Source: Candidatus Altimarinota bacterium
GTDB lineage: Bacteria; Patescibacteriota; Gracilibacteria; BD1-5; UBA6164
Reading direction: 5' to 3'
Assembly: GCA_028698305.1 (NCBI GenBank)
Contig: JAQVDN010000001.1
Span: 1-64,000 of the forward strand
Length of the DNA: 64,000 bases
Below, piece after piece: positions 3,966-62,671 of the stretch. The position numbers were made by a program, and so were the translations under genes. The stretch's first letter is position 1, and every line of letters starts with the position of its first letter. Below the pieces are notes generated by a model. The model worked only from the letters and a program-made list of their open reading frames with translations. It was not told the DNA's origin and ran no database searches.

Positions 3966-4517
3966 TTATTTTATTGCATTAAATTCATTTGTTCAAGTTT
4001 GTTCCCAATCAGTATATCAAGATGGTAATTCAGGGTAATCTCAATAAACCTCTTTTGTATCATATAAATTTCATTCTACCATAAAATTTATTGTTGTAGT
4101 AGAAGAAGAACTTGGCAAATTTGAATTTGATCACGAATTATTTATCCTAATATTGTTTAAAAAATTGATAATTCACCATGAAGAAATTGATAACAAAACT
4201 CAAACAAGTGACCAAATAATCCATTTTTTTGCTTTATTTGCTTTTTCTTCATCTCAAGAAGATAATAAATAAAGAACTCAACTAAAAATAAGTGCAAAAA
4301 CTGCAAAAACTGCAACTATTTGTATAAATTCTCATATAATATTGGACATAAATCTTGCTCAAATATTATTTGAAATATCTGGAGTTCATGGTTTTTGAAT
4401 ATTTGTATCAACACATCAAGGTAATCATACACAATTTATTTCTGGCTCAGCAGAAAATGTGAGATTTTGATAAGAAAAAGAAAATAAAAAAACAAACAAT
4501 AAAAATATTTTTTTCAT
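3966..4517 (-). CDS. VirB2-like pilin with a C-terminal extension
   Basis: This 183-residue protein has a signal peptide, two transmembrane helices flanking the loop SSGDEEKANKAKKWI, and a roughly 65-residue Ser/Thr/Asn-rich tail after the second helix. The core matches the T4SS pilin family. The tail is absent from the shorter paralogs in this window and would probably be exposed on one side of the membrane. It sits second in the minus-strand operon, 16 bases after the 306-residue gene. Confidence 0.75.
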
Positions 4518-4533
4518 TTTAATATATTATTAA

Positions 4534-5454
4534 TTAAGTATACAATATATATCTAACTATTGAAACTAATAAATATGATGACAATGCTACAACCATAGCA
4601 TAAATTCAAGACATAAATATAGATTTTCACTTACTAAGTATCTCATCTTGTCAATTATGAAAAACTATATATCAACCTCAAACTGTCATCATAAGTATTG
4701 ATAATGTTCAAAGTGCTATCATCATTTTTTGAATAAGTGTTCATAAAAGCCAATTTACTCTTTCTTCTGTATTATTTCATTTTGAAACTATTCAAGGTGA
4801 AATATCATTAACATTAATAATAAAATTTGTACTAGTTAAATCATCTGGTCATCATCATTTTGTTCAACTATCTGCAGCTTTTGTATTAAGATTTTCTGCA
4901 CATTTTGCTCAACACTTTCAATCAGTTTGTCAAGAAGCAAGTTTTCAAGCTTCTGTTAAATTTCAATCTTTATCAACATATCATGCAGCTTGAAGATTTG
5001 ATAAATTATCTTTTGTAAAAGTATTTTCTTTAAGATTATTATTATAATATGAAGACGAATTATGATCTGTTGTTTCAGACTTTGCTCAGGAAATATAATC
5101 ATTTCAAGTGTATTTTTCAGAAGTTGAAGTTGTAGAATTTATAGAATTATTTATAACTGAATCCTCTCAAAGTCAAAATGTTCAAGATGGTATTGAATTA
5201 TCTAAATCTGTTGTTGATGATGTAGTACTTGTAGAACCTCATGAAAACATAGAACAATCTCATCAGGTTGAACATCAAATCACATCTCACCCTTCGTCTG
5301 AAGTAATTTTTTGTCAATTTTCATATCAGTAATAACTTCCTCAACTAACAACAGTATATGTACCATCTGAATTAATTTTTAAGTTTACTTCTTCTGCAAA
5401 AGAAAAATTTAAACTAATAAAAAACAATAATAAAAACAATAATATTTTTTTCAT
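4534..5454 (-). CDS. Secreted membrane protein heading the pilin operon
   Basis: This 306-residue protein opens the operon. It has a signal peptide, a long Ser/Thr/Gly/Asn-rich extracytoplasmic region with several Cys (for example KCGAKCAE), and two C-terminal transmembrane helices separated by a loop with Gly-Gln-Asp-Glu. The C-terminal layout resembles the VirB2-like pilins downstream, so it may be a pilin-fold protein with a large exposed N-terminal domain. Many glycines are TGA, which breaks the frame under the standard code. No enzymatic motif is visible. Confidence 0.7.
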
Positions 5455-5558: not shown

Positions 5559-6707
5559 ATGAAAATTGCAATATTACATGAAATGCTTATAAAGCTTGGT
5601 TGAGCTGAAAAAGTAGTTGAAAATTTACTTTCTATTTTTCCAGATGCTGATTTATTTACTCTTATATATGACGAAAAAAAAGTAGGAAAAGTATTTCCAA
5701 AAGAAAAAATAAACTCAAGAGTTTTCAATTTAAAAAGTCAAAAAATATATAATATAACTAAAAAACAAAGATTTTGTTTACCTTTTATGGCAATAAGTGT
5801 TGAAAGTTTAGATTTTAGTAACTATGATTTAGTTATTTGTTCTAGTTCATGATTTGCTCATGGAGCTATAACAAAACCTGAAACAAAATTTATAGTATAT
5901 TATCACTCTCCTGCTCGTTATATGTGGGATTGGACAAATGAATATAAAGCTGATTTATGATTAAACTCTTCTTGGAAATCTATATTTTTAAAACCAATTA
6001 TTAATAAATTATTTTTACATCTTAGAATCTGGGATGTAATAGCAAGTAATAGAGTTGATATTAGTCTAGCGAACAGTAAAAATACAGCTAAAAGAATACA
6101 AAAATATTATAAAAAAGATTCTATCTTACTTTATCCTCCTGTTGAAACTAATAGATTTGCAAAAAAATTAAACAAAGATTTGTATTTTGAAAATATTTTT
6201 GAAAGAAATAATTATTATATAATCATTTCTGCTTTAACAGAATTTAAAAAACTAGATATAGCAATAAAAGCATTTAATAATCTAGAAGAAAATCTGCTTA
6301 TAATTTGAGCTTGAGATTACAAAGAAAATCTAGAAAAATTGGTAAAAAAAGAAAACATAAGATTTGCTTGAGCAAGATATAATGATGAGCTTGTTTATCT
6401 AGTTCAAAATTCTATGTGACTAATATTTCCAGGTGAAGAAGATTTTGGGATTGTACCAATAGAAGTTATGGCAGCTTGAAAACCTGTTTTTGCACTAAAT
6501 GCTTGATGATTAACTGAAACTGTTTTGGCTTGAATTACTTGAGATTTTTTTTATGATAAAGATGGGAATGATTTTATAGAAAATTTTAAAATTTTTCATA
6601 AAAACAATAAAGAAAATAAATATGCAGAAGAAAACTGTAAAAAACAAGCTAATATTTTTAGCAAAGAAATTTTTGAAAAAAAATTGAAAGAAATCATAAA
6701 ACAATAA
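5559..6707 (+). CDS. GT4-family glycosyltransferase
   Basis: This 382-residue protein is a group 1 (GT-B fold) glycosyltransferase. The N-terminus has the 'HEMLIKLGGAEKVVE' acceptor-side pattern, and the segment YYHSPARYMWDW is typical of WbaZ/mannosyltransferase-like members. The C-terminal donor-binding half carries the E-x7-E motif (Glu294-Glu302 in EEDFGIVPIE). It probably adds a sugar to a lipid-linked glycan at the cytoplasmic membrane. The O-antigen-ligase-like gene follows within 60 bases, which supports a surface-polysaccharide role. The specific sugar cannot be read from sequence. Confidence 0.9.
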
Positions 6708-10344: not shown

Positions 10345-10376
10345 AAGAACCATTTTAAAAATGGTTCTTTTATTTT
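10338..10376. terminator. Bidirectional terminator between convergent genes
   Basis: A long inverted repeat (arms about 10338-10356 and 10358-10376) has A- and T-runs on both sides. It overlaps the stop codons of both the small secreted protein gene (plus) and the giant gene (minus). Confidence 0.8.
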
Positions 10377-13300
10377 ATTATATAGTCACTGTCTACTTTA
10401 TACAAAACAGAGGCTACATCTCTTGAAAAGTTTTTATCATATAGTTTTATTACAACATATTCATTATAATAATCATATTTTAATAAATAATTTGAGTTTA
10501 AAGTATTTATTCTTCAATCATTAAATATGATAAATAATAGTTCTTTTTTATCATCATTAACTCTATAAATAACTAAACTTCATGGATTATAAGATATATT
10601 TTCAGGAGTGATATAATAATTATAATTTGTTGAATTTAAAAATTTAACATAAATTCAAGTATTTTTTGTATTATCAAAATCTTCTGTAACAACAACTGAT
10701 TTATTTCAATTAACTTTTATAGTTTCATAAAATAAATCCTCATTTCAGTCCTTCAATATTATCTTTGGATAAACTTCATTATTTAGATTGTTATTAGAAG
10801 AAATTACATCAATTAAATATTTATTATCTAATAAATTTATTTTTCAAGTTTTTTCACTAACATTTGCTATTAAAGCATTATTTTTTTCTATTTTTAATCA
10901 AGATTTATCGTTTCAAATATTGAAAATATAAGATCAATTATTTGTCAAAGCAGTATTATTTCAAGATTCATTTGATAATTTTGAAATCATTGTTCATCTA
11001 ACCCTATATAAACTTACAGGTTCATCACTCAGATCTTCACTTATAATTCAAGAAATATTAGTTCAATTATGACTATTTATCTCTGGTACTGGACTATAAA
11101 CCTCAAAATTAACTTCTTTATAAGATTTATTTCAATTCAAATCGATAATTGTAAATCAAACTTTTTTTGTAAATATACTATCAAAAATTCATAGATTTAA
11201 AAATATCTTTTTATCATCCAATTTAATTTTTAAATTTTCCATATTATCAGAATCTGGATCATTTTTTGGATTTCAGTCTCAAGAACTATCTTTTTCTAAA
11301 TCAAAATCTATAAATATATTAGATAATCATACATCTTCATAAATATATTTTGTTAAATCAAGAGTTTGTTTTTGATAAACTGGAACTCTAATAGTTCAAA
11401 TAGTTAATTCTGGTGAATTATTATCAGCTTGAGATTGAGGAGATAATAATAACTGATTACTTATTGTTCAAATTATATTGTCCTTAAAAGAAGTAATTTT
11501 TGAATAATAAAAATCATTATTTCTTGTTGTTGATATCAAATACCTTTGAGATTCATATCATAAATTATATAATTCCCAATCAGAAATATATTTAAAATTT
11601 AGTGATAATTCTGAATCATCATAATACTTTAATTCTATATATGTAGTATCTTTTAATTCATAGTCGTTACCAATATATGAAATAATAGTTCACGGTAATA
11701 AAGGTATTCCTATAAGACTTCTTATATCACTTCCTTCATATGTCTTTTTAGAACCATTTCTTATATATCAATTTCCAGTTATTCAAACTATATTTATAGT
11801 TGAGTTTATTTCTATATGCCTATTTTTCGGTATTATAATAGTTTCTATATCATTACTTCAACTAATAACATATTTTAAAATTAAAGAATTATTTCAAGAA
11901 TATATCTTAGTTCAACTAGAAAGAGTTACCACTTTACCATTATCTATGTTTGTTTTTATATTTGAAAAATCATCTGTAATTACCTTAACTCATTTTAAAT
12001 CTCAAACCTTATCTATATAAACTATGTCTTTTAATTCATTATAAACTTTATTTTCTCAAATCTTATTTATATCTCATATAGAAGATACAGAATCTACAAT
12101 AGATTTTTTTCTAAAAATAGGAGAATAATTTAAATAATTTTCATTTAAAAATTTATCAACTATATTATAAAATTCAAGTCTATAATTATTTATATTATTT
12201 TTTGCATCAAAACTTATATTTATAGTTCAAGCAGATGATACATTACTTACTGCATTATTTATTGCCGATATATATTTTGATCAATTTAAAAATTTATTAT
12301 CTTTTATACTTACAACTAATGGATTTTCATTTAAATAAACTTTTTTAGATTTTTTATCTAAATTTTCTTTTAAATATAAAACATTATTAGAAAAATATAA
12401 TAAATCTTCGTCACTATCCTTATCAAAATCTATTATTGTAGTTGTTTCATTTCAAATTAATTCATCTTTATAATCAAAAAGCCTATAAGATTTATTATTT
12501 TCTAAAATATATATTCATTCATAAACATAAGAATATTCTCAATTATTTGATTTAGCACTACAAGAATTTACATTAGAATCACTATCCAAATTTGTATTTA
12601 CTGCCAATAAATTAGAAGAAGTAGATTTTGTTTGTATAGAAGATTTTTTATAAGACTCTAAAGCAGTGTCTACCTTATCAACTAAATCATTTCAAATTTG
12701 TTTTAATTCATTTTTATAAGAATTTTCATCATCATAATTCAATAATTCACTTGTTTTTTCAAATACCTTAGAATTATATTTTTCAAGCATAGAATTATAA
12801 ACTAATACATTTGAATCATTAGTATAAGAAACTTTTTTAATATTTGTATTTAAATAATTGTTAAAAGATTTTTTAAACTCTTTATTTTTAATTATTTCAG
12901 TATTTATAATATCTTTTAAAGTTTCAAATTTATCAAAATTATTTTGTTGCAATTCTGAAATCAACTTATCTTCTTTTGAAAAAGTATAATTAGTTACATT
13001 ATCCCATAAATCAAATAACTCTTCAAATCTAGGATCATCCGTAAATTTTTTACTTGATAATGACTCTAAAACTAATTTTTTAAATTCAGTATTACTAACA
13101 GTTACATCTTTATTTTTAGACATAAAATCAACTCATTTTAATATATTTCTATTAACTATAGATATAACTAAATCTTCAATTAGTTTATTATCTTTAAGAG
13201 AAATATTACTATTTATTCCATCATCTCAAATATTTATATCAATATTTGATGGTATAACTGATCTAAAATCTAAATCGGCAATATTTATGTTAAAAATATT

Positions 13301-16300
13301 TGTAAAATCAGATGTAAAACTATTTATTGGCATAGCAACTTGTCTAGCCATTTCAACTAAGAAATCAACATCAAATTCTAAATTAACATATGTAGTAATT
13401 TGTATAGCATCAACAAATGGGAATGAAAACTGAGGAAGACTCAGATTTAAAAAATCAGTAGGTAGATATCAACTTCTTTCAGTTAAAAATGCTATTTGAT
13501 CTCAAGCTCTCCACTCAGGGTGAAAAGGTGAAGATTTTAAAATACACATTGCTTTAGTAACCAATTTTAAAATATCTAAGATAACTTCTAAAGAAGATAA
13601 CATTTTTGGAAGAGTTGGTGGAGGTGGTAGATCTGGTAATTCTACAGTAGGCAAACTTGGGAGATCTGGTAATTCTGGTAATTCTATAGTAGGCAATACT
13701 GGTAAATTTGGTAAAGTAATACCTGCTGATGGAGTATCTGGTAAATAAAGTTTTGGTAATTCTGGTAACAAAATAGGTCTAGGACTAATACTAAATTCAG
13801 GTAACATTATATTTAATGATGCCCTAATATTATGTAAATCTAAAATAATATCTGGCCATTTTGGAAATTCTATCACTGGTATTTCAGGAACAATCATACT
13901 AATTATTTCAAATTCTGATTGAAGAGCATCTTGTCTTTCATTCTTACATTCTTTACATTCTTGTTCATAATCAACAAATACATCTATAAGTAATTGCCAA
14001 GATTTTAAGATAGATTTCATCAATATAAATAACTCAACCCAAGCTTTAAATCTTTCTCAATTATTTCAAATCCATCAACCAAGTATAGAAGAAATTCACT
14101 CAATATTACATAAGATTTGCTCTAAATAATATTGTTTTTTATTAATATATTTATTAATTTTTTCAGGAATTTCTTTATAAGTTTTTAGAACTTGCAAATT
14201 TGCTTCTAGAGAATTTACTAAATTTGAAGCATCTATATTTACTTTTTCAGCTAATGCATTTTCATCAATACATCTTTTTTGTTCCTCTGGATTTGTAAAA
14301 TTACAAGTTTTTCATAATGTCCAAACTGATGTTGCTCTATTTAATTCTGATTTCCGAGAATCATAAGTTGCTTGCCGTGTAAAAATTGTTTTATCAATTT
14401 CAGTTAATGAAACCCAAGGCAATGATATATCAACAGTTGCTTGTTCTATTTTTACAAGTGGCAAAGATCATAAAAATTCATATGCTTCTCTTATTCAAGA
14501 ACTATATTGTTTTGCTTTATCAACTAATTGAGAAGTAAGATTATTAGCATCAGTTGCTAATCATTTAAGAGTTGAATTTGTTATATTATTTGTATCTATA
14601 GGAGTTGAAATATTATCTAAATTAATAACATCATTTTCTGTTCTATTTTTATTTCAACTATTATATAACCAATTTGATTTATTTTGTTCCCAATCTAAAT
14701 CTGTATCATATATTCAAGAAAAATCTGGTAATATAATAAATAATGTTGGAAAATCTGTCAATTTATTTGCTATTTCTTCTATCTGTCTAGTTACCCAATT
14801 CATAAGAAATCATGGAAATGCTTGAACTCTTTTTTTAACTATTTTTGTTACATCAGAAAAATCAACATTAGAATTACTTGGATCAATTGATACAGAGATA
14901 GGAGTTCAACTTCATCATCAAATTGAAAATAAAGGACCATTTCAAACATTTGAATTATTTCAAGTCCAAACTGCATCTTTTACATTTCATAAACTAGAAT
15001 ATGTTCCATTTCCATTTATATAATTATAATAATTATTTACATAACTTTGATCTATGAAGTTTTGAGTATCAGATGAACAATTTCAATTTATAACTCAAAA
15101 ATTGTTTCAATAAATTGGATAACCTTTTGAAGCTGGATTACCTTCAGATCAATCATTACTACATCAAACTATTGGCTTTGCAATAACGATACAATTTCAT
15201 CATGGGAAAAGTGGTGCAAGTCAAGGCATCACAGAATTTCATGCTACAGATGCTGGAGCACCAAAACAAGCTGCCATTCAAACTCAACCAGTTAAAGTTG
15301 GTGAAACAAATAATCTAAAAAAATTTGTAGGTGAATTAATTCATATGCTTCATCAAGCTCAATCAGGTCAACAAACAGGTCAAGGAATATATGTTTGTGA
15401 AGTTGCGGGCCAAACACTAGGTAAACAACAAGGCGAATTTCAACAAGTAGTTTGTTTTCAAGTTAATGCTGAAAATATAGGAATTCATTCATCTATATTT
15501 AATCAATCTCAAATTAAACTTCAATTAAAAACTGGATCACTTCAAGAAGCTAAAGGAGCCCAATTTAAAGGCGTTGAAATACAAGATCAATTATTAAATC
15601 AACAACTTAAACTATTTACAAAATTTTGTATATTATCAAGTCAAGAATCAATACTATTTCATGTATTTCATAAATCAAGTGTTATTGAACCATCTAAATT
15701 AAAATCATCTTCGTCATCTGGTATTCAATCATTGTCTATATCAGAAAACATATCAGATAATGATTTTTTAGAATAATCTTTTAAAGTTTGTGTATTTTTA
15801 GTTAATTCTTCTATATAATCAGGAATTCCATTTCAATCATTATCAAGAGTATTTTTTTGTAAATCCTCTGGTAATGGAGTATCATCACAAACAGGATTTT
15901 TAATTCATTTATTATATATTCTAGTTGAAACTGATCTAAAGATTTCAACTGGAGTTCAACAATTTTCTATTGTATCTTTTAATATTATATCTCAATATAA
16001 ATCATTTCAAGATTCTCACTTTTCAAATAATCAAACTTGCATTTGAGAATATTTTAAAGGTTTAACTACTGCTGAATAATTTATTGTTATAGTTTCATTA
16101 TTTGCCAAAGAAAAATCATCGATTAAAAAATCATAACTATTATTTGGTTTTTTGGCTTGTAGTTTTTTTGAATTAAATATCGTAGATTCATCAAGTGTAA
16201 AATAATCTAAAACATCTTCTACATAAACAAAATTTTCAAGTCTCTTTCATGAAGTATTTGTTATTCTTATTTCTACATCAACCTTATCTCAAGTAGATAA

Positions 16301-19300
16301 AAATTCTCAATTCCTATCTAAGAATATCTTTTCAACTCTTACTCAAGCAGCTTCTGAATAATCAGATTTTATAAAAGTTGTTTGATTTATAGTTTGAGGA
16401 AGATTAATCAATGAATCTATATTTGTAATATCATTAAATTTAAGTGAGTAGTTTTTAGAATAAGCAATTTGTTCAAAAATAAAACTATTTACAAGTTCAT
16501 AATCTATTTTTTCTTGATCTGATTTTTTTGTTCCAGATTTAATGGATTTTTCCAATTCAGAAAGATATTTTTCATTTGATAATAATAATTGAGTATTATC
16601 ATAAGTTGTATCAACTTGATATAATCAATCATAATAGATTAATCCTCCATCTCTTCTAATATCTTTGTTTAAAGTTAATCAATAATCTTTACTAACATTT
16701 AATTTAGTAAAAGTTGGATTTGAATTTGTACCATTAATTCAATAAAAAATATTTATTTCTCAAGCATCATCTAATGTAATAATATCAGAAACTCAATCAT
16801 TATCCATATCAAAACTTTCTGCTCTGATTATATTTCAATTTAAATTAAATTTATTTGCAAGTGAGATCCTAGAAAAATCCTTATTTATATTATTTAATAA
16901 ATATGGTTTTCAATCTTCTCAAACAAAGAAAATATCATCATAAGAATCTCATGTAAAATCTCAAACTTTAAGCAATTCATGATTTCATAAATCAATGATA
17001 TGTGCCAAATCTCACATATCTAAAAATCTAGATTCGGCTTGTACATTTTGTAATAATTTTAAATATCAATCATATTTTAAAAGTAGTATATCTTCTCTAT
17101 TATCATTATTATAATCAAATACCCTATATCAAACTAGATTTTCATCATCATTTATTAAGTCTCAAATTGTAGAATCAAATTGTTTTAAACTTGTTGAATT
17201 ATTAAATGTTTTTCTAATTTGTTTTAAACTAATAACAGGATCTCATATATTTATAGAAGAAAAACTCATATTTTCTTTTAGTGATTCTCATACACTTTTT
17301 CATGATGAAAAAGATAACAATGTTTTATTTGTATCTCACCATCAAAGTCATCATTGTTGTTTAAAGTTTTCAAAATAAGAATTATCTCATTTAGAAAAAG
17401 TATTTAATGAATCTTTTGAAGAAAAAGGATCATTGTAATATATTACAAGAGATTCATTATTGTCTTTTCAATTTATATATGATCAATAAAATGAAGACTC
17501 TATATAAAGCATAATACTATTTTGTATAGTTTTCATTTTTGTATCAAAAGATGTTTTATCTCTTGATATATTAATTTGAGAGTTTACAAAATTAAATATC
17601 AATTTTCAAACAATATTAGAACCTGATTTTAAAGATATTTCTAAATAATTTGCAGTGCTAGTTACAACTTCAAAATCTATATTTGCTCTCCTTATTATAT
17701 TTCATTTTTCATCTATTTCTAAATAAGTTTTTCAAAGCTCATCTCTCAAATAAAGTCTCGAATCAACATTATAAAATTTAAAATTGGAAGAAATATTTTT
17801 TCCTATTATAGAAGTATCTTTTGTATCTATACAATCTCAAATACTTGTATCACAAACTTTTAAATTAGCTTTCTTTGGAAAAGCATAATGTATTTCTCAA
17901 ATATTTGTATTTAGTGAACTATTAAATAAATCTATATATAATTTTGTGTCATTAAATGAAACATTTAAATTAATATCTTGTGATAAATCATTTGGTGCAT
18001 ATAACTTATTTAATCATCAATTATTTGATATAGAAAAAACATTATTATATGAATATGGGTTATTAACTATAGAAGTTACAGCCAAAGCTCTACTATTTTT
18101 ATCAAATATTAAAGTTCAAGCTAAATAATCTTTTTGATCTATATCTCAATAACTAGCTCAAAGTAAAGTTGTATAAATAGAATTATAACTAGTTTTTGAA
18201 ATCTTATCTTTATTCCAAATATAAAATGTTTCTATTTTTGCAGCATTTTCTCATACTCAAACAACTTCCAATCTTCAAGATTCATCCTCAATCATAAATT
18301 TATTCAAAGACAAAGAAGGATTTGTAGAAACTTTGAAATATCAAACTCATGGATTTATAGTAGAAAAAACTTTAAAACTTGTTTTTCATTCTGTAACCGT
18401 ATTAGTTTTTTTATCAAAAGTAATTATATGAGTATATTCTGGTAATATTTCAATATCTACTTTTGTAGAATTATCAGTAAAAACCAAATTGTTGTATCTA
18501 TCTTTAAGCTCTATATTTACTGTTGAATAATCATTACCAGATGCATCTAATTTATTTTTTGATAAAACCAAATCTATTTTCATTGCTTTTTCAGGCAATA
18601 TATCAATAGTTTGAGTTATTATTTTTCATAATCATTCTACCTGTATCTCAACAGGAATATTTCTTCATGCAAGAGTTTTAGTTCTAAATTCTACAACTCA
18701 AACTCAATTAATAATTTCAAAATATGGTTTTTCTAATTCAATATAATTTGAATTAGCTGTCATATAAACTCTTGAATTTAAATTATTAATTATCTTTCCT
18801 GCTTTATCTCTAATTTCTATTTGATATTTATATTTTCATCATCAAATATACATATCACCATTTAAAGATTTTGTATTTATTTCAAAATCTTCTATAACAG
18901 AAGCTTTCTTAGATTCTGAAACAATTATATTTCATAAAGAATCTAAAACAGATATATTTATATTATTACTTCATACTTTTGAATTAGATTTTAACCTAAA
19001 AATCTTATATCACTCATAAGTAGTTGTCAATAAATTATCCTTATTGTTATCAACAAAAACAAGACTTTTCCCATCTATTGACATTTTAACATCATAAAAT
19101 GTACCACTAGTAGGATTATCAAATTTATCAAGTATAGTTACATAATTTGTAGAAACACTTCATTCATTTTGTAAATAATTTGTTCACAAATTTAAATCTA
19201 ATTTAGAAGGAATTTCAGGAATAACTTCAAAAGTTTTTTCAGAATATAAAGAAGACTTATCTCTTATTTTTAAAGTATAAGTTCAAGCTTTTTGGATAGA

Positions 19301-22300
19301 AAATAATGACTTGAAATCTGAAATATTATCTATATCCAATTCTTGTATTAATTTATCATTATTAAATAATTGGATATTTATAGGATAAGATATAGGTAAG
19401 AAATCTTTAGAAGAAGAAATGTTTTCTAATCTTATAACTAATTTTTCTTTTGAAACAGAACTATTATTAATAAGATTTTTACTTATATCTATATTTGATT
19501 TATATCAATCAAGTAAAAAAATATTATCCTTATCACTTACCAACACAGATGATTTTGCTATATTTGTGATCAATTGAGAATCCTTATTTTCTAAAACATA
19601 AGAAGATAAGAATAGACTTTCTCATCTAACCTCTAATTTTAAAATATTAGATTCTAAATCAACAACATTATTATTTTTATTATCATCTATACTTATTTTT
19701 GCTCTCAAATATACATTTATATCTTTATCTTTAAATGATATACCATATTTTGCAATTCAACCATCAACTCTAATTGTTATATCTTTAAAATTTAGATAAT
19801 TATTAAGTATCTCTTTATTATTTTTATAGATATCATCTATATCATAAATAATTTTTTTATTTGTTTCAGAAAGATCTTTTGTTAAGTCATTTTTAGTTTC
19901 TACTTTTACTATCTCAAAAGAAACATTTGTAGAATTTAAATAAGTTAAATTTTTTCCATCTGATCATTTTAAAGTCGCTTTTAAAGAAGCATTTTTATTA
20001 TAAAAATACTTAGGGGAATCTGATTCTAATAATATACTTCCTGAAGTTAATTTAGATTCTAAACAATCATTTACTCAATTTTTATTTACATCTCAATTAC
20101 ATTCTTTTAATGTTTGTTTTTCTTCATTTGATAAAAGACTTGGTCAACAAGCTCAATCAGAAATAGAGATTGTAGGTGGAACCATATCTGCTAACCGACA
20201 CATAATAGCTGGTATCCATTCCCACAATGGAACACCTTCGGGCGGAGCACATTTAAAAATATTTTCTTGAGAATTAGTTCATCTTCAAATATTTAATCAT
20301 AATAATTTTGCTGACAAATCTTGATTTCTTCAAATAATATCTGAATATGGATTTACATTTTTAGCTTCTGGATCAACTCAAACATACATATTAGATGTAT
20401 CTCATGGAGCTCATAAATAAGCTATTTCATAAGATTTTTTATTCTTTGGTAAAAAATATTTTTCATCATTATCAAACTGATTTGATAAATAATTTTCAAA
20501 AACAAATCAATATTTTGAAGAAACTGAATTTAAGTTATTCCAATATATTGCAAATACAAGCATATCGTAATAACTAAGAGTTTTTGATTCTCATGATATA
20601 GTTATAGTTTTACTTGGCTTATTTTTTAAATAATTTTTTAAATCAAGTCTTTCTCATGTTTTTACTATGCTGTTAAATTCAGCACTTTTTTTATCTAAAA
20701 TATTATCTAACTCTAAAGAAACACTAGATAAAGTAATATTATTAATGTTTTTTAATTTTAACCTATATAAGTAAGGATAATATATCTTTGAAAATGATCA
20801 ATCTACTTGTAAAAAATCAACATATCTATCTTTATCAACTGCCAAAGAAGGAGTAACCATAGATTCTATTTGTTCTGAAAGTTCTTCATTTGTTGGAGAT
20901 TTATGAAAAACATAAGGTTTCTTAATAGTCTTATAATCATATCTATGACTTGTCCATCAACTTCATTGTGTATTAGTAAAATTTCATGATAATATATTAT
21001 TTGATACTCATTCTAAGTTATTTACTAAACTTGATGTTGATGATCCAGAACACTCACAAGAATTTCATAAACAAGATTGAGTATATCAAACTTCTTTTTT
21101 TAAAACTCAATCCAAATAAATAGATTTTTTTTCACAATATCATGCTTTTAAAGTTGAAAGATTTTCTTCATAAGAGATATTTAAATTATATGTTTTATTA
21201 ATTCAATTTGAATCAGTTATACATTTCCATCATGGAATATTCTTATTCAAAATATTTGAATTAAAAGTAGGAATTTGATATGTATTTACCAATTCTGATG
21301 TCAAAGAGTTAAGTTGAACTTCCCATTTATCTGCCAAAATCAAATTTGTATCATAACACATTTGAGTATTTGGTATTTTTGAAGAATCAGATATTTCTTT
21401 TGATCATCTAATATCATATAACGGAACTATTGCTCCCTTATAATCAATATTATTATTTAAAATTAAATTTCATTTAGTAGATTCATCTTTATTAAGATTA
21501 AAAGGGGAATTTCTTCACCATAATCATTCAAGTGAATTTCATGATTGTAAATTTGTATAACAAATATTTCAAAATAAACCTAGATCATCTTTATCTGGCT
21601 CTATATTATAAATATTAGTTCATCTATTTGATTCAACCAATTGACCTGAACTTGATAAACTTCATCTATATATACTACAATTTCAAGCATAATCTATTTC
21701 TGAAACTTTTTTTCAAAACAAATAATTTACATATTTTTCAGTTTTTAAATTATCTTTATACTCATATGAAACAGGTACAATTAATGAAGCTGGAATCTTA
21801 TCTACTAAATTATCTATTTGCGATTCTAAATCATCACTTAATTCCTTTAAGATCTGATCATTAACTATATCAAGAACATTTATAAAGTATGGTATAAAAT
21901 CAACATTAACTTCTTGTCAATAATTATATCTTCAAGCATTAAACACGTTCTTTCTCATCTCTGAAATAGAACCAGGAGAAAAAATCTCTAAAAATTTTTT
22001 AACAGAATTATTTATAATATATCTTGATTGTATATCTGGAATATTATTTAAACTTGTATCAATATTGTTTAAAAGAGAAGTATCTATATCTGGAGTTACT
22101 TTTTTTGCTAAATCTATTATCGTTTTAGAAGAATCTGACAATAATTCTTGTTTTATCTTATTTGCCAAATCTTTTGTAAATCTATTATAAACTATATCTT
22201 CTTTATTTTCCAAATAAGATTTATATCAAACATAAGAATTATAATTTATAGATTTTGATTCTCTAAAAGCATCAAAATAAAATACATAAGGTTCATAATC

Positions 22301-22975
22301 TTTATTTAATCACTCTTCTTGATTTCAATTAATAATATTTTTTTCTATATCATAAAATCCTTCTCAAGTATAAAAATCATGATTTTTGGAAAAGTAATCT
22401 TTTAATGCTTCTATATCAGAATCAAAATTTCAAGTATTTGGAGATATAACTCAATGCCAAATTTCTGGTTTAATTCAACTTATATTATCATTACTATATT
22501 CATATTTAGATGTATTTGTATCAAAAATATATGATTTATCTTCAAAATCAGTATAAGGTAATATAGTTTTTGATACTTCATTATTCTTATAAACCTCAGG
22601 TAAAGGAATATTTCAAATAAAGATACTTCAAACCAATTTTGATTTAAAATCAACTTTATTAAGTCAATTATATCACTCATAATATAAAGCTTCATTCATA
22701 GAAGCAATATCATAAGGAGTTGCAGTTTCAGGAAAAGGCAAAACCACTACTTTGGTATTTTCCAAAGTATTAGTAATATCCTTGCTATATTTATTAATTT
22801 CAGAAGATACTTTTGAATAAGTTTCTTCATCAACGACAATAGAAACTAAGTCATAATATTGAGTTCATGAAGCTGAAGCAAAAAAATCAAAAAATGGTAC
22901 TCTAAAAGTAATACTAAAAAGTAATGAAAAAATCAAAAAACTTGATGTAAATTTTTGAAATTTTGAATATATCAT
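10370..22975 (-). CDS. Giant secreted surface protein, about 4201 residues
   Basis: Read with TGA as Gly, the frame stays open for 12,606 bases. The start at 22975 and stop at 10370-10372 are in the same phase, and all sub-fragments checked share it. The N-terminus has a signal-like hydrophobic segment (residues 10-32), then the stretch TKVVVLPFPETATPYDIAS with IFIGNIPLPEV, faintly like gingipain-type (C25) folds. FG-GAP/VCBS-like repeats lie near residues 1950-2060 (FDYNNDNREDILLL, FDMDNDGVSDII) and 3511. Calcium-loop motifs of the DNDGIPD type lie near 2378 and 2415. A Gly/Cys/Pro-rich stretch is around 2500-2610 and a Leu-Pro repeat region around 3060-3125. No transmembrane anchor is obvious at the C-terminus. 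It is likely a filamentous adhesin-like protein. Confidence 0.85.
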
Positions 22976-55445: not shown

Positions 55446-55729
55446 TTAAAGTAATTTAATTGTAATGTTTTTTGGTAATTGTAAAGATATTTTTCAGCTT
55501 ATATTTCATGGTAATATTTCTGGTTCTATACTATAATCTAGGATTGGTTTAAGATTTTCTGTTGTTTCTTGTGTTCAATCATTGTCTATATCTTTTGAAT
55601 ATATTACTGCAGTATCATTATCGTTTAATACTTCTGTCCAGTTTATATCTAGTTCTTGTTTTCAATTTATTGTTTCTAGATTTCATAGCATAACTGTTCA
55701 TGTTCAGTTGTTTTGAAAATCATATACTA
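55446..55729 (-). pseudogene. Truncated cassette copy D of the 58.5-62.4 kb gene
   Basis: The minus strand encodes, without a start codon, residues homologous to the segment FQNNSTGTVMLGNLETINGK of the 1304-residue protein, through DYSIEPEILPGNISGKI. It then diverges to end SLQLPKNITIKLL and a TAA at 55446-55448. It lies beyond a terminator hairpin (55731-55762). It is the most downstream and shortest of three decayed copies. An internal ATG could allow a shorter product, which I consider unlikely. Confidence 0.7.
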
Positions 55730-55730
55730 A

Positions 55731-55762
55731 AAAATAAAGGAAAATAATTTTCCTTTATTTTA
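55731..55762 (-). terminator. Terminator between small gene C and cassette D
   Basis: An AAATAAAGGAAAAT stem pairs with ATTTTCCTTTATTT. The same hairpin recurs at 56897-56930 and 57995-58026, one per array unit. Confidence 0.8.
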
Positions 55763-55765
55763 AAT

Positions 55766-56212
55766 TTAATCTCTACATAGTTTTGATATTACTTCTTCAA
55801 AAATAAATAAATTATAATCATCATAATATAATCTTTTCTCATATGGAATATTATATCTAGGATATGCAAAATAATTATGTTTATATATAAACATATTAAA
55901 TAGTGATTCTAACTTAAATCAAAATATATATTTTTCTTCTCAATTATAATTACTTACATAATAACAATTTTTAATTGGTTTTATATCCGCACCATACCTT
56001 TCATTAAACTCATTAAGTGAAAAAAATCTTTCATCACCTTCTTTTATTGTTTCTAGTATAGGTTTAGCTTTCTCTAATTGTTTAAAATTATAGTTATCTA
56101 TATATATTCAATATCATTCTCTGACTATAAATAATATTAATAAAATTAAAAATCATATTTTAAATACTTTTATATTTATCAATTTAACAATTTTTTTAAT
56201 TTTTTCCTTCAT
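55766..56212 (-). CDS. Small membrane protein C of the cassette array
   Basis: This 148-residue protein starts MKEKIKKIVKLINIK, has one transmembrane helix (about residues 18-35), then a soluble domain with NFKQLEKAKPILETIKEG, FNERYGADIKPIKNCYYVSN and FGFKLESLFN, and a C-terminal Cys. It is paralogous to the proteins at 56934-57386 and 58029-58517. In this copy the Tyr-Ile repeat of the others is replaced by FNMFIYK. The function is unknown; it is probably surface-facing. Confidence 0.75.
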
Positions 56213-56217
56213 AATTT

Positions 56218-56897
56218 TTATTTAATTTTAAAATTCTTAATCAATTGTTCTAGTAGTTTGTTTATAACTTGAAAATCTTTATCTACATAATTTTCTCAGT
56301 TTTTTATTTCTAGCATATAGTATCAAGTATTTGGTATCTTTGTTGTCCATCACTTTTTTAACTCTAAACTTAGTTTATACATTCATGGTTCTAAATCAAC
56401 TATTTTATAGTTTCATTTATTATCTAGTTCTATGTATTGTTTTTCTTCTTTATTTTTATGTTTTTTGTTTTCTTTTTTGTCTTCTTTTTTATCTTTTCAT
56501 TTATTATTTTCTATTGTTTCTTTGTCTTCTTGTTTTTCTAATACTAGTTTTGTAGTTTTATTTAGTATTTCTTTTTCTAGTTGTTTTACTATTTGACTAC
56601 AATTTTTATTTCATATCTTTTTACATATTTCTTGTGGTAAATATAGTCATATTTTTCAACTTATATTTCATGGTAATATTTCTATTTCTGGTTCTATACT
56701 ATAATCTAGTATTGGTTTAAGATTTTCTGTTATTTCTTGTATTCAATCATTATCTAAATCTTTTAAATATATTACTGCAGTATCATTATCGTTTATTACT
56801 TCTTGCCAGTTTATACTTAGTTCTTGTTTTCAGTTTATTGTTTCTAGATTTCATAGCATAACTGTTCATGTTCAGTTATTTTGAAAGTCGTCTACTA
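56218..56897 (-). pseudogene. Truncated cassette copy C
   Basis: This 680-bp minus-strand fragment is homologous to the C-terminal about 220 residues of the 1304-residue protein. It starts abruptly at VDDFQNNGTGTVMLGNLET with no start codon and ends in LLEQLIKNFKIK and TAA. The middle has a shorter Lys/Glu linker than the parent. An in-frame ATG inside GTVMLG could start a protein of about 210 residues. It is followed after 5 bases by small gene C. Confidence 0.75.
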
Positions 56898-56930
56898 AAA
56901 AATAAAGGAAAATAATTTTCCTTTATTTAA
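56897..56930 (-). terminator. Terminator between small gene B and cassette C
   Basis: The stem AAATAAAGGAAAAT/ATTTTCCTTTATTT is located between the small gene and the start-less cassette, so cassette C is probably not transcribed from the upstream unit. Confidence 0.8.
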
Positions 56931-56933
56931 TTT

Positions 56934-57386
56934 TTATTCTTCACATGGATTTGAAATAACTCTTTCAAATATTTTTTTATTTATATCTTCTATACATTCT
57001 GGAGATCAATCACAAAAAATTTGTATAGGAGCATCATAACCAGGATATACAAAATAACTTTTTTTATATATATATATATATATTAATGATTCTAATTTAA
57101 ATCAAAATATATATGGATATTTTCAATTATAATTACTTATATCATAACAATTTTTAATAGGTTTAATTCAAGCATTATATCTTTCATTAAATTGTTTTAG
57201 ATTATAAAAATCTTTTGTATTTTCATCTATAGTTTCTAGATATGGTTTAACTTTTTCTAACTGTCTAAAATTATACATATCTACATAAACTGCATAAGAT
57301 TCTCTCAGTATAAATAATCATAACAATATAAAAACTATTATTTTAAAATATTTATTTTTAACTATATTTTTAATTTTTTCTTTCAT
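56934..57386 (-). CDS. Small membrane protein B of the cassette array
   Basis: This 150-residue paralog of gene C has a start (MKEKIKNIVKNKYFKII), a transmembrane helix, NFRQLEKVKPYLETIDEN, KPIKNCYDIS and a Cys-containing tail. A (TA)9 tract (57065-57082, plus coordinates) encodes the Tyr-Ile stretch. The tail has an extra Cys pair (FCDGSPEC) not found in A or C. It directly precedes the terminator of its unit. Confidence 0.75.
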
Positions 57387-57405
57387 AATTTTTTATTATT
57401 ATATA

Positions 57406-57995
57406 TTATTTAATTTTAAAATTCTTAATCAATTGTTCTAGTAGTTTGTTTATAACCTGAAAATCCTTATCTATATAATTTTCTCAGTTTTTTATTTCTA
57501 ACATATAGTATCAAGTTTGTGGAGTTTTTATTGTCCATCATTTCTTTAACTCTAAACTTAGTTTATACATTCATGGTTCTAAATCAACTATTTTATAGTT
57601 TCATTTAGTATCTAGTTCTATGTATTGTTTTTCTTCTTTGTTTTTACTTTTGTATTTTTTATCTTCTTTTTTATATTTTTCTTTTTCTTTATTTTTTCTG
57701 TTATTATCTTCTTTTGTTTCATCTATTGTTTCTTTATATTCTTGTTTTTCCAATACTAGTTTTGTAGTTTTATTTAGTATTTCTTTTTCTAGTTGTCTTA
57801 CTATTTGACTACAATTTTTATTTCATATCTTTTTACATATTTCTTGTGGTAGATATAGTCATATTTTTCAGCTTATATTTCATGGTAATATTTCTGGTTC
57901 TATACTATAATCTAGGATTGGTTTAAGATTTTCTGTTGTTTCTAGATTTCATAATATAACTGTTCATGTAGAGTTATTTTGGAAATCGTCTACTA
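57406..57995 (-). pseudogene. Truncated cassette copy B with an internal deletion
   Basis: This 590-bp fragment starts at VDDFQNNSTGTVILGNLET and ends FKIK TAA, homologous to the 3' end of the 1304-residue gene. Relative to the parent it lacks about 108 bp (36 codons, in frame) between two copies of GAAACA, the mark of a short-direct-repeat deletion. The parent's TVMLGN has become TVILGN, so the internal ATG is gone and no start remains. Confidence 0.8.
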
Positions 57996-58026
57996 AAAAA
58001 TAAAGGAAAATATTTTCCTTTATTTT
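57994..58026 (-). terminator. Terminator between small gene A and cassette B
   Basis: AAATAAAGGAAAATATTTTC-type hairpin, the third copy of the same element, directly downstream of small gene A. Confidence 0.8.
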
Positions 58027-58028
58027 AA

Positions 58029-58517
58029 TTAATCTCTACATGGATTTGAAATTGTTTCTATAAAATCATTTTTAATTCTATCTCAAGGTCAACCTGAATA
58101 ATACATTGGATCAAAAGGTAAATCATACTTAGGGTATGCAAATAGCTTTGTTCTATATATATATATATATATTAATGACTCTATTTTAAATCAAAATATA
58201 TATTTTTCATCTCAATTATAATTTATTACATAATAGCAATTTTTAATTGATTTTATATCTGCATTATATTTTTGATTAAATTCTTTTAAACTATAAAATC
58301 TTCCATCAGTTTCTGGTATAGATTCAAGTATAGGCTTAGCTTTCTCTAATTGTTCAAAATTATATCTATCTATTGCTATCTTATCTTTTTCAAATGTAAA
58401 ACTATATATTGCAACTAATATAAAACTCAATATTAATAATAATAAAAATCATATAAAAAATTTAATTATTATTCTGAAATATTTATTCTTAACTATATTT
58501 TTAATTTTTTCTTTCAT
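58029..58517 (-). CDS. Small membrane protein A of the cassette array
   Basis: This 162-residue paralog has MKEKIKNIVKNKYFRIIIKF, one transmembrane helix (about residues 15-40), NFEQLEKAKPILESIPETDG, NQKYNADIKSIKNCYYVIN and a C-terminal SNPCRD. A (TA)9 tract (58154-58171) encodes its Tyr-Ile stretch. Its start lies 5 bases after the stop of the 1304-residue gene, so it is probably co-transcribed with the parent. The first copy in transcription order, it is likely the functional one. Confidence 0.78.
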
Positions 58518-58522
58518 ATTTT

Positions 58523-61500
58523 TTATTTAATTTTAAAATTCTTAATCATTTGTTCTAATAATTTGTTTATAACTTGAAAATCTTTGTCTACATAATTTTC
58601 TCAATTAGTTATTTCTAGTATATAGTATCAAGTATTTGGTGTTTCTGTTGTCCATCATTTCTTTAACTCTAAACTTAGTTTATACATTCATGGTTCTAAA
58701 TCAACTATTTTATAGTTTCATTTATTATCTAGTTCTATGTATTGTTTTTCTTCTTTATTTTTATCTTTGTGTTTTTTATCTTCTTTTTTATATTTTTCTT
58801 TTTCTTTATTTTTTCTGTTATTATTTTCTTTTGTTTCATCTATTGTTTCTCTATCTTCTTGTTTTTCCAATACTAGTTTTGTAGTTTTGTTTAGTATTTC
58901 TTTTTCTAGTTGTTTTACTATTTGACTACAATTTTTATTTCATATCTTTTTACATATTTCTTGTGGTAGATATAGTCATATTTTTCAGCTTATATTTCAT
59001 GGCAATATTTCTGGTTCTATACTATAATCTAGGATTGGTTTAAGATTTTCTGTTGTTTCTTGTATTCAATCATTGTCTAAATCTTTTGAATATATTACTG
59101 CAGTATCATTATCGTTTAATACTTCTATCCAGTTTATATCTAGTTCTTGTTTTCAATTTATTGTTTCTAGATTTCATAGCATAACTGTTCATGTAGAGTT
59201 ATTTTGGAAGTCGTCTACTAGTATATTATATGTTCAAGAGTTAGTTTTTGTATCATCAAAATCTACTCTAATATTTTCTCTTGATATATTAAAAGTATCA
59301 GTTTGTCATGATGATGTAGTTATTCATTCTAGTTTTGTATAATAATCTCATCATGCTATCATTAAGTCATAGTTTTCATCTGTTTTACCATTTATTCCTA
59401 TACTTAGATTTTCTAGTTTTTGTGGTAAGTAGATTTGTTTAAAAGTATTTTCAGTAGTTTCTCAAGCATAGTTTACTATTACTCTAGTTCAAGGTATTTC
59501 TTCATATATTTCTCAGTTTTTATATCATGTTTTGTTTCAGTTTATATCAGTAAGTAATATATCAGAATTTCAGTTTAGAGTATAGAGAGTATCTATATCA
59601 TTGAATCATATTAAAGAAGTATTATCAACAAAAGCTTCATCTATAGATACAATTCATATTTTTTCAAATTTATCCCGATTATATCAAAATACTGAATATG
59701 TATTATTTGTTATATCTATTTCTATATATTGATTATAAGCAAAAAATTTTTTTCATAATTTATTTTCAAAGAATGGGTATGGTGTTATATTGTCCCAAAT
59801 ATATATTTTATTTCATTCTACTTTATATGGTATAACAGCATGTCACACATCAATACATGATTTTCAAAATAAATTACATCCGTTTTTTCATCTAAAATTT
59901 AATATATATTTTCAAGGATTATTTTTTACATTATTTAGTATATCTATTGGAGTATCATTTTCTAATGATAAAGTCATTTTATCATCAAAATTACTTTCTT
60001 TTTGATATAATTGTAATGCTAAAATTGATTTCAAATTATCATCCAATCATATTAATTGATAATTATTATTGGTATCATTTTTTATATTGATTTTATCAAA
60101 AATATATCAATTTCATATATTATTACTAAAAATAGGAAAATTTCTTTCTAATATTTCTGGTTTATGATATTGGGTTAAAGCACTTAGTCAAAGTCAAAAA
60201 CATATACCATCAGAAAAAATAGTAGGTTTATCATTGTTTAATCACAATGATTCAAATGCTGCAAAATACTCTCTTTCATCTCAATTAAATGATTCAATTG
60301 GAAATACCATATCCATTATTTCCCATTTTGTTCAAGAATTTTTCTCTCTTGTATCCTTAAAAAATCCATCTTTTCAACTTATTCATCAAGTTAACTTAGA
60401 TATATCAGGACTAGAATTCACAAAACTAAACCCATAAGGATATGGCTCAAATCATTCAAAAAGTGAAAAATCTATTTCCCAAGCTTGATTTGTACTATAA
60501 TCAACTACTTCACTTGTATTTCAATTATTATCTGTAATTTTTACTTTCCAAGTATAGTTTCATTCTCAAAGATATGGTATAGTTATAGTTCATGTTCATG
60601 AAAATATTTCTATACTATCAGTATACATAGGTATTGTTTGTCAGTGTTTATATACTTCAAAAATCATATTGTATGAATTTGTTGTATCATTTTGTATACT
60701 TGCTTCTAGTATCACTCAACTTCCAGATTGAAACTTACCTATTGTAGTTCATACTTCTATTTCTTCTCTTTTTTCAATATATGGTGATTGTATATATTGT
60801 TTTAAATTTGTTGGTATTGGGATTTCCTCCTCTCCATTTGACTTAATAATCTCCACACTATGTATTATAGGTGTCTTTGTTGTATCATTTTCATCTGGTA
60901 TTAGATGGATCTCATAATACAATCTATCTGTAGTTTCTCAAAACATACTCACTAGATCTATATCTGTTTTACCATCTAATTTCTCTTTTTCTATACAACG
61001 GTAATTGTAATAATAATTATCTGTATTATTTGGTTCTTTATTACTTATACAAAATATATAATCTGTATTTTCTGGTAATTCTGAGTCTACTTTTATCTTT
61101 ATAAATTCTTTACTTTCTCCATTATATATTTCTCTACTCTTGTATACATTTTCTTCTACATAATAATTATTATCTGTTCCATCCTTCTTTATCCTATATA
61201 CTACTGATTTACTTTCTGGTGTATTATAATATCATGGTTTAGTTACTGTTTTAAAATAATATATATATTCTTCATCATTTGCAAGATAATAGCTATCAAT
61301 TTGAGTTATTATAGTTCAAGTTTCTTCTGTTCCATCTTTTCTTATCTTTCTTATCCTATAATCATTTGGATCTTCTTGATTTGGATCATAATTTCTTATA
61401 ATATTTGTATGATAGTATATATATTGTTCATCAACAAACATTATTGCATTATCTTCTTCTTGTCAGATTGTTTCTGGTGATTCTGGCATATATTGTTGTC

Positions 61501-62437
61501 AATATGAATCTGGTTTTAGTCTCTTTATCTTATTACTATCATTTGGATCTGTATAGTAGATATATTCTTCGTTTGATGTGAAATCTGGGTAATATAAACT
61601 AGATATATATGCAATTGGTATATCATAATTTTGTTCCAAGCTTCAATTTAGTTTTGTCATATATAGATATCAATCTCACCGATCTTCATAACCATTCTTA
61701 TAATATATTTTTTCTTCATCTACATAATATATTTCATTTGCTGATATATTTGTTATCTTTTCTGATTGATTCATAAATGAATAAGGACTATCTGCTCTTA
61801 TTTTATATATTCATTGTTCTCCATATCTCTTACTATAATACAAATATCCATCCTTATAATATGGTCTTCATAATACTGATTCTTGTATTAATGTTTCTCA
61901 TTGTGAATCTGCTTCCCAATCATTTTTTGCCCTACATATATAATTATAATAACAACTATAATATACATATTGCTCATCTATATGATGTATACTAAAATTA
62001 TATGGACTTATTCAGCTCAATACAATCATTCATCCATAATATGCTTGACTTCCAGTTTTTGGTATCTTGTACAAGCTTCCATCTTGTCTTGCATTTTGAT
62101 AGTATAGAAATTCTCACTCTATATAATAATTTGAATCATTATTTATTAAATAATTATAATTTCCATAATTATCATTTCCATATAATACCATCTCTGCTTC
62201 TTCTTTTTTCTTACCTTTTTCTAGTCTATATATATTATTATCTTTTATATAGTATACATAGTTTCAATCTATTATTACTTTTCATATTATACTATTTTCT
62301 ACTTCATAGATCTTCTCTCACGATATCTTATCAAATCTATATTCTATTTGTTCTTTGTAGATATTTTCTGCACTAGCATTATTTACTCACAAAAAAACAA
62401 CTATCATTGATAGCATTAATAAAAAAATCTTTTTCAT
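58523..62437 (-). CDS. Large secreted protein: propeller-like repeats, papain-like domain, repeat-derived C-terminus
   Basis: This 1304-residue protein has a signal peptide (residues 1-25). Residues about 30-460 carry repeated YYIxxGxxYRIxxDG patterns (for example EYIYYFKTV and VYRIKKDGT) like the DUF5050 beta-propeller family. After an Ig-like stretch, residues 735-890 show a Cys/His/Asp signature: Cys746 in SDGICFGLGL, His866 in DVGHAVIPYKV, and Asp near 882 in IYIWDNITPYP, typical of papain-fold peptidases. The C-terminus has a Lys/Glu-rich linker and a domain with GMYKLSLELKKGW, ending LLEQMIKNFKIK. TGA Gly codons occur throughout. Target and function are unknown. Confidence 0.8.
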
Positions 62438-62488
62438 AGTTCAAGATTTTAAAAAAATAAAAACTATTTAACACTAGGAGATACTTTT

Positions 62489-62515
62489 ATTATATGTTTT
62501 TTTAAACTCTTGCAA
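62489..62515 (-). promoter_or_regulatory. Promoter of the 1304-residue gene
   Basis: Minus-strand TTGCAA (62515-62510), a 15-base spacer and TATAAT (62494-62489) lie about 52 bases from the start codon. Confidence 0.55.
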
Positions 62516-62523
62516 ATTTATTT

Positions 62524-62552
62524 TGTCGCTTTAAATCAATATTAAAGCGACA
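62524..62552 (-). promoter_or_regulatory. 11-bp inverted repeat upstream of the promoter
   Basis: TGTCGCTTTAA and TTAAAGCGACA form a perfect dyad with a 7-base spacer, 9 bases upstream of the -35. It has no T-tract, so a protein-binding operator fits better than a terminator. Confidence 0.5.
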
Positions 62553-62671
62553 TTAAAATTATATTAAAAAATTTTAAATCTGTTAGAAGCTTAATTAAAG
62601 GAAAAAAAGAAAAATTGTATAAAATAATTGATATAAATTTATAAAATAATAACTTCTAATAAAACATTTTT
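62553..62671. other. Divergent intergenic gap
   Basis: AT-rich, no gene seen. It separates the array's parent gene (minus) from pheS (plus). Confidence 0.4.

Follow-up and report, generated by a model that had tools for sequence, protein, structure and literature searches.

A surface-protein gene, its membrane partner and an array of orphan partner genes: a candidate effector/immunity-like locus in Gracilibacteria

Why does a tiny, probably host-dependent bacterium carry, behind one intact gene for a putative surface protein, a row of start-less copies of the end of that gene interspersed with complete copies of its small neighbour? The locus in question lies in the last part of a 64,000-nucleotide stretch (the window; contig JAQVDN010000001.1, positions 1 to 64,000, assembly GCA_028698305.1) of a Gracilibacterium genome of 1.29 Mb in 18 contigs. 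The window has a G+C content of 24%. TGA occupies positions of glycine, as in MscL, and the sequence is therefore read under genetic code 25 (TGA = Gly). We call the large gene A and its small partner B. The reading that we prefer, with slightly better than even confidence, is that the locus is a polymorphic effector/immunity-like system whose array archives displaced partner genes, with A a putative toxin and B a putative immunity protein.

Anatomy and divergence of the array

Read under code 25, the sequence upholds a first-pass annotation that had described a tandem array of 3′ ends of a 1,304-residue gene, each with a small membrane-protein gene and a hairpin. The array runs on the minus strand from A through B1 and a hairpin terminator into units of a start-less A 3′ end, a B gene and a terminator; the units are 1225, 1098 and 1168 bp long, followed by a partial unit of 284 bp. 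Its parts are as follows.

58523..62437, minus strand: gene A, 1304 aa under code 25
58523..59220, minus strand: tail T0, the part of A that recurs in the array; its first letters are TAGTAGACGAC (VDDFQNN)
58029..58517, minus strand: B1, active partner gene, 162 aa, probable membrane anchor
57993..58026, minus strand: terminator hairpin 1, abutting T1
57406..57995, minus strand: orphan tail T1, start-less, open frame, with a 108-bp in-frame deletion
56934..57386, minus strand: B2, complete orphan partner gene, 150 aa
56897..56928, minus strand: terminator hairpin 2, abutting T2
56218..56897, minus strand: orphan tail T2, start-less at VDDF, open frame
55766..56212, minus strand: B3, complete orphan partner gene, 148 aa
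55731..55761, minus strand: terminator hairpin 3, abutting T3
55487..55729, minus strand: orphan tail T3, cut short at the locus boundary

All four copies of the A 3′ end share one start point, which lies within the gene at 59220 and recurs without a start codon at 57995, 56897 and 55729, the VDDFQNN point named by the first-pass annotation. Each start-less tail begins with TAGTA and directly abuts the T run of a terminator (...CCTTTATTTTT followed by TAGTA). The hairpins, which fold with z scores of -3.4 to -4.0, had been called identical; two of them are, and the third differs slightly in its loop. The deletion reported for one copy is found in T1, where exactly 108 bp (36 codons) are missing in frame between flanking AGAAACA repeats. 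The frame of T3 runs on into native DNA upstream of mscL and stops at 55446; we considered whether T3 might be the end of an old native gene and rejected this, as its final codons are mscL upstream DNA.

The description of these copies as decayed does not hold. The tails have no internal stops, with pairwise dN/dS of 0.21–0.26 among T0–T2 (0.36–0.42 in pairs with the short T3), and all three B genes are complete and start with ATG. The value for the two orphans T1 and T2, 0.21, is not what a neutral relic would show; the two may equally well have been gene-converted by a working copy or have been at work themselves until recently. The supposed variable linkers turn out to be the B genes: identity between units is 0.9–1.0 in the tail, drops to 0.5–0.9 inside B and recovers at the terminator. 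Synonymous divergence follows the same division, with dS of 0.49–0.63 for the B genes versus 0.15–0.25 for T0–T2. Clustering of informative sites, both in the tail (p = 0.03) and in B plus terminator (p = 0.002), is in our reading a sign of mosaicism.

B lies directly 3′ of A in the window and in most homologous loci, and is modelled as a long N-terminal helix followed by a small cysteine-containing beta domain, the putative ectodomain. A reading of B as a pilin was rejected, as the sole Foldseek match was meaningless (probability 0.03). B3 is closer to the active B of locus L044, from another species (74% amino-acid identity), than to B1 (59%). A (TA)n tract lies within several B genes: it is 19 nt long in B1 and B2, where it encodes IYIYIY, and occurs also in the B genes of L040 (4137-4624), L045 (2338-2809) and L058 (1118-1581). 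Tracts of 13 and 19 keep the frame. Three orphan B genes, with tracts of 15, 21 and 21, lose it, and their remainder is readable in another frame; the tract is possibly a slippage switch or a mark of early decay.

A variable core that covaries with B

Gene A encodes, in order, an apparent signal peptide, a variable N-terminal region, an Ig-like region, a hypervariable core, a conserved pre-tail and the tail. The core and its invariant residues are located as follows.

59636..60469, minus strand: hypervariable core of A, aa 657-934
approximately 60200-60202, minus strand: codon of the core cysteine
approximately 59840-59842, minus strand: codon of the core histidine
approximately 59792-59794, minus strand: codon of the core aspartate

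These residues (C746, H866 and D882) are invariant in 15 of 15 copies, within the motifs GxC[FYL]G[LM] and [GAKR]HxV...DN/DS. A structural model of medium confidence (pLDDT 77.7) places the cysteine where a helix begins and the histidine in a strand. This order of elements is compatible with a papain-like protease, although Pfam, PDB and Foldseek gave no papain-like match, and a PDB profile search, Pfam, NCBIfam, PADLOC and two Foldseek libraries returned nothing usable for the identity of the core. Judged by its motifs, the core is possibly a papain/transglutaminase-like Cys–His–Asp enzyme and a candidate cysteine protease. A Pfam scan of A did not find the MafB-type N-terminal domain DUF1020; RHS/YD repeats and the Rhs-associated core, which are present in loci L107 and L113, were not found in A either. 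The tail has a weak SdrD_B-like match. We also considered the tail as the toxin domain; this is unsupported, given that SdrD_B-like matches occur in most members and that the tail is nearly constant.

Across 12 loci, distances between B ectodomains are correlated with those between cores (Mantel r 0.47, p 0.002), and show no covariation with the adjacent tail (r 0.04) or with taxonomy (r 0.08). The correlation falls to r 0.34 (p 0.009) without the outlier L055, and persists after controls for taxonomy and for the pre-tail or Ig region (p 0.001–0.036, with and without L055); the sample is small and its pairs are non-independent. Such covariation is expected for a co-adapted pair, and taken alone fits immunity and anchoring alike.

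Recurrence, mosaic genes and the chromosomal slot

Within the family, 13 of 48 genomes have homologues of A; the 29 genomes from the other two families of the same order have none. The homologous loci that carry names come from Gracilibacteria metagenome-assembled genomes. Most homologues are followed by B, and in several genera the series continues as A + B + (tail fragment + B)n. Breakpoints are specific to each array and mostly follow hairpin-like sequence. In L044, which comes from another species of the same genus, the orphan begins with the very codon at which those in the window begin, after a closely similar terminator. The arrays of L042, L048 and L049 have start points of their own, and all three orphan copies of L052 start at one point, so the different start points suggest repeated founding events. 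Species are interleaved in the B tree, in which many nodes are weakly supported and B3 groups with the B genes of L044. A recent amplification, which the first-pass annotation had offered as one explanation, is thus insufficient for the whole array, given B dS of 0.5–0.63, a junction found again in another species and B lineages interleaved between species.

The A genes are mosaic. L041 and L042, from one genome, are about 0.91–0.99 identical in nucleotides over the first ~480 codons, about 0.6–0.7 over the core and mostly 0.94–1.00 in the pre-tail and the greater part of the tail. L044 and L045 show the same pattern, and taken together the two pairs have flanks at ~0.8–1.0 and a core at ~0.6. 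The Ig-like stretch of A is up to 0.98 identical to that of a paralogue in the same genome, C6, and segments have been transferred between loci, both in this genome and in others. The paralogue itself (L009, 260-4175) has RCC1 repeats and an SdrD_B tail. Its array contains, after the small open reading frames (ORFs) that follow the gene, a hairpin-like repeat and then a short fragment that is 97% identical to the window's tail over 88 bp.

Directly after A, 13 of 13 B genes were scored as complete, counting L048 and L053, for which the automatic start-codon call differed from the start set by hand. About 20 of 30 orphan B genes are complete as well, with a few ambiguous cases in this tally. 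In L043 and L051, complete B genes stand 9 and 14 bp apart with the tail gone. The B translations of L040 at 4193-4624 and 5868-6299, about 1.7 kb apart, are identical, frameshift included, which reflects either a block of two units that was duplicated recently or a repeat made by the assembly.

In four genomes of the same genus (G001, G003, G004 and G005), pheS and mscL are adjacent and A is absent from between them. The segment that these congeners lack is the following.

55487..62640 (approximate), no strand: segment missing between pheS and mscL in four congeners

The window has about 7.15 kb between these two genes, and the end of T3 shares a short A[CT]ATTTTT match with the native sequence. 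In a fifth congener (G002), an Rhs C-terminus (Rhs_assc_core, E 8e-23) precedes mscL at the start of a contig, accompanied by a predicted membrane protein of 119-125 aa; pheS lies near the end of a different contig, and we infer that the two ends belong to one slot. Further association with Rhs is found in genome G033, whose contig 16 (L107, 1-9442) carries an Rhs gene and several Rhs orphan fragments. The last of these orphans joins the Rhs core to an A tail in one reading frame, with a complete B next in line; 819 bp of this cassette are 96% identical to a cassette in the A array of the same genome. Rhs fragments also lie alongside A arrays on contig 1 of G033, in G005 and, near the array end, in L040. 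Contigs 1 and 48 of G033 have identical 127-bp ends, so the array may continue across them.

Elsewhere in the window, a 4201-aa open frame with an apparently signal-like N-terminus occupies 10370-22975 on the minus strand.

Readings of the locus

In the effector/immunity-like reading, A would be a surface protein that the cell exports; its N-terminal region would be exchangeable, the Ig-like region and the hypervariable core would follow, and a tail that hardly varies would close it. B would be a membrane-anchored partner outside the cell, matched to the core. B is most likely a self-protection (immunity) protein, and less likely a receptor or anchor. Homologous recombination, such as that of a donor's orphan tail with the active tail of the resident, would bring in a new core, tail and B. 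The old B would thereby be shifted downstream with a start-less A remnant and a terminator, and repetition of such events would build an array of retired, complete B genes that may still be expressed. Such recombination would leave the old tail start-less behind the donor terminator, hence the common start point of the tails, and the cassettes would carry the constant tail because the variable part of A is internal.

Several known systems offer partial parallels. The mafB-CT cassettes of Neisseria MafB/MafI islands lack start codons (PMC4287609), and as at the A/B locus a secreted multidomain protein has a small partner gene directly downstream and start-less 3′ cassettes that each come with a partner (PMC4287609). 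MafB cassettes hold the variable toxin end, however, whereas those of A hold a near-constant tail, and A has no MafB-type family match. Orphan immunity-gene arrays of the type VI secretion system (T6SS) of V. cholerae arise by effector displacement (PMC5361080); there, too, retired partner genes stand behind one effector locus, in some cases together with 3′ remnants of the effector, and alleles do not cluster by strain (PMC5361080). A differs in its apparent signal peptide, in not being a VgrG or T6SS protein, in tails that are homogenised within the array and in its Gracilibacteria hosts. Orphan 3′ modules are likewise known from Rhs/CDI toxin–immunity systems (PMC3150448), and genuine Rhs genes occur together with A/B cassettes in an orphan array and, as it appears, at one chromosomal slot, although no RHS repeats were matched in A. 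Cpe1/Cpi1 pairs a papain-like interbacterial protease toxin with a coevolving immunity protein (PMC12136450). The idea of a Cys/His/Asp protease effector and the correlated divergence of partner and effector are common to both (PMC12136450); Cpe1 acts in the cytoplasm (PMC12136450), and no relationship of it to the A core was found, though none was tested for. The A/B locus has a downstream partner gene, stand-alone 3′ cassettes with partners and core–partner covariation, as polymorphic toxins do.

A number of observations weigh against this reading. Known polymorphic toxins vary at the C-terminus, after a constant N-terminus, whereas the variable region of A is internal. The family searches brought up no toxin or immunity family for either A or B, and the core has no sequence relative in PDB and no interpretable fold match. 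The covariation of B with the core is modest and comes from 12 loci. At a dN/dS of ~0.5, the B genes give no proof of selection on the orphan copies, and intact orphans could also come from recent displacement. In the C6 paralogue, four tandem ORFs of 56-63 aa with hydrophobic stretches stand in place of B.

In another view, B would serve A in host attachment, as its anchor, chaperone or receptor partner, and the arrays would be by-products of recombination at repeated tails. The SdrD_B-like tail of most members, the RCC1 repeats of the C6 paralogue and the modelled build of B, a long helix bearing a small ectodomain, all suit it, and any co-adapted pair would fit the covariation. Complete B genes without A and the repeated association with Rhs are better suited to stand-alone protection, and we regard attachment as fairly unlikely. 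Silent-cassette variation, the other proposal of the first-pass annotation, would have the start-less tails gene-convert the 3′ end of A, carrying B along and varying a surface structure. Part of it stands: the tails are start-less, open, homogenised and mosaic, with low dN/dS, blocks have moved between loci, as in the near-identical C6 fragment, and mafB-CTs that lack an initiation codon have been called potentially silent cassettes (PMC4287609). In Borrelia vlsE, too, an expressed surface gene lies beside a cassette array without expression signals (PMC11499132). There, however, the cassettes vary the expressed surface domain (PMC11499132), whereas here they carry the near-constant tail of A, its variable core is in none of them, and the units differ mainly in B, which stays complete even where few bases of the tail are left. 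Because B varies between units and outlasts the shrunken tail, the array resembles an archive of partner genes more than a store of tails, and silent-cassette variation is in our view unlikely.

Plain tandem duplication followed by slow decay would suit the orphan B genes that are frameshifted or truncated and the short decayed tail of the C6 array. Open tails with dN/dS of ~0.2, B genes older than the tails, a junction common to two species and recurrence with different breakpoints all speak against it, and we consider it very improbable. The source is a draft genome, in which strain variants might be chained by metagenome assembly, but the differences between units far exceed sequencing error and like arrays occur in independent assemblies, one of them of 4 contigs; an artefact is therefore extremely unlikely.

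Returning to the effector/immunity-like reading, we tentatively propose, and with less confidence than the reading itself, that this is an undescribed surface effector/immunity system of Gracilibacteria, with an internal variable domain, a constant tail that serves as a recombination handle and an ordered archive of past immunities, some of them perhaps switched by (TA)n slippage. We found no paper on such a system in Gracilibacteria in the open-access literature searched; the PTD-repeat locus of PMC6851277 was considered and is a different phenomenon. The locus offers a testable candidate for how probably host-dependent cells may attack their hosts or compete for them, and it shows how the variable parts on both sides of a constant C-terminal tail could be exchanged with the tail as a handle.

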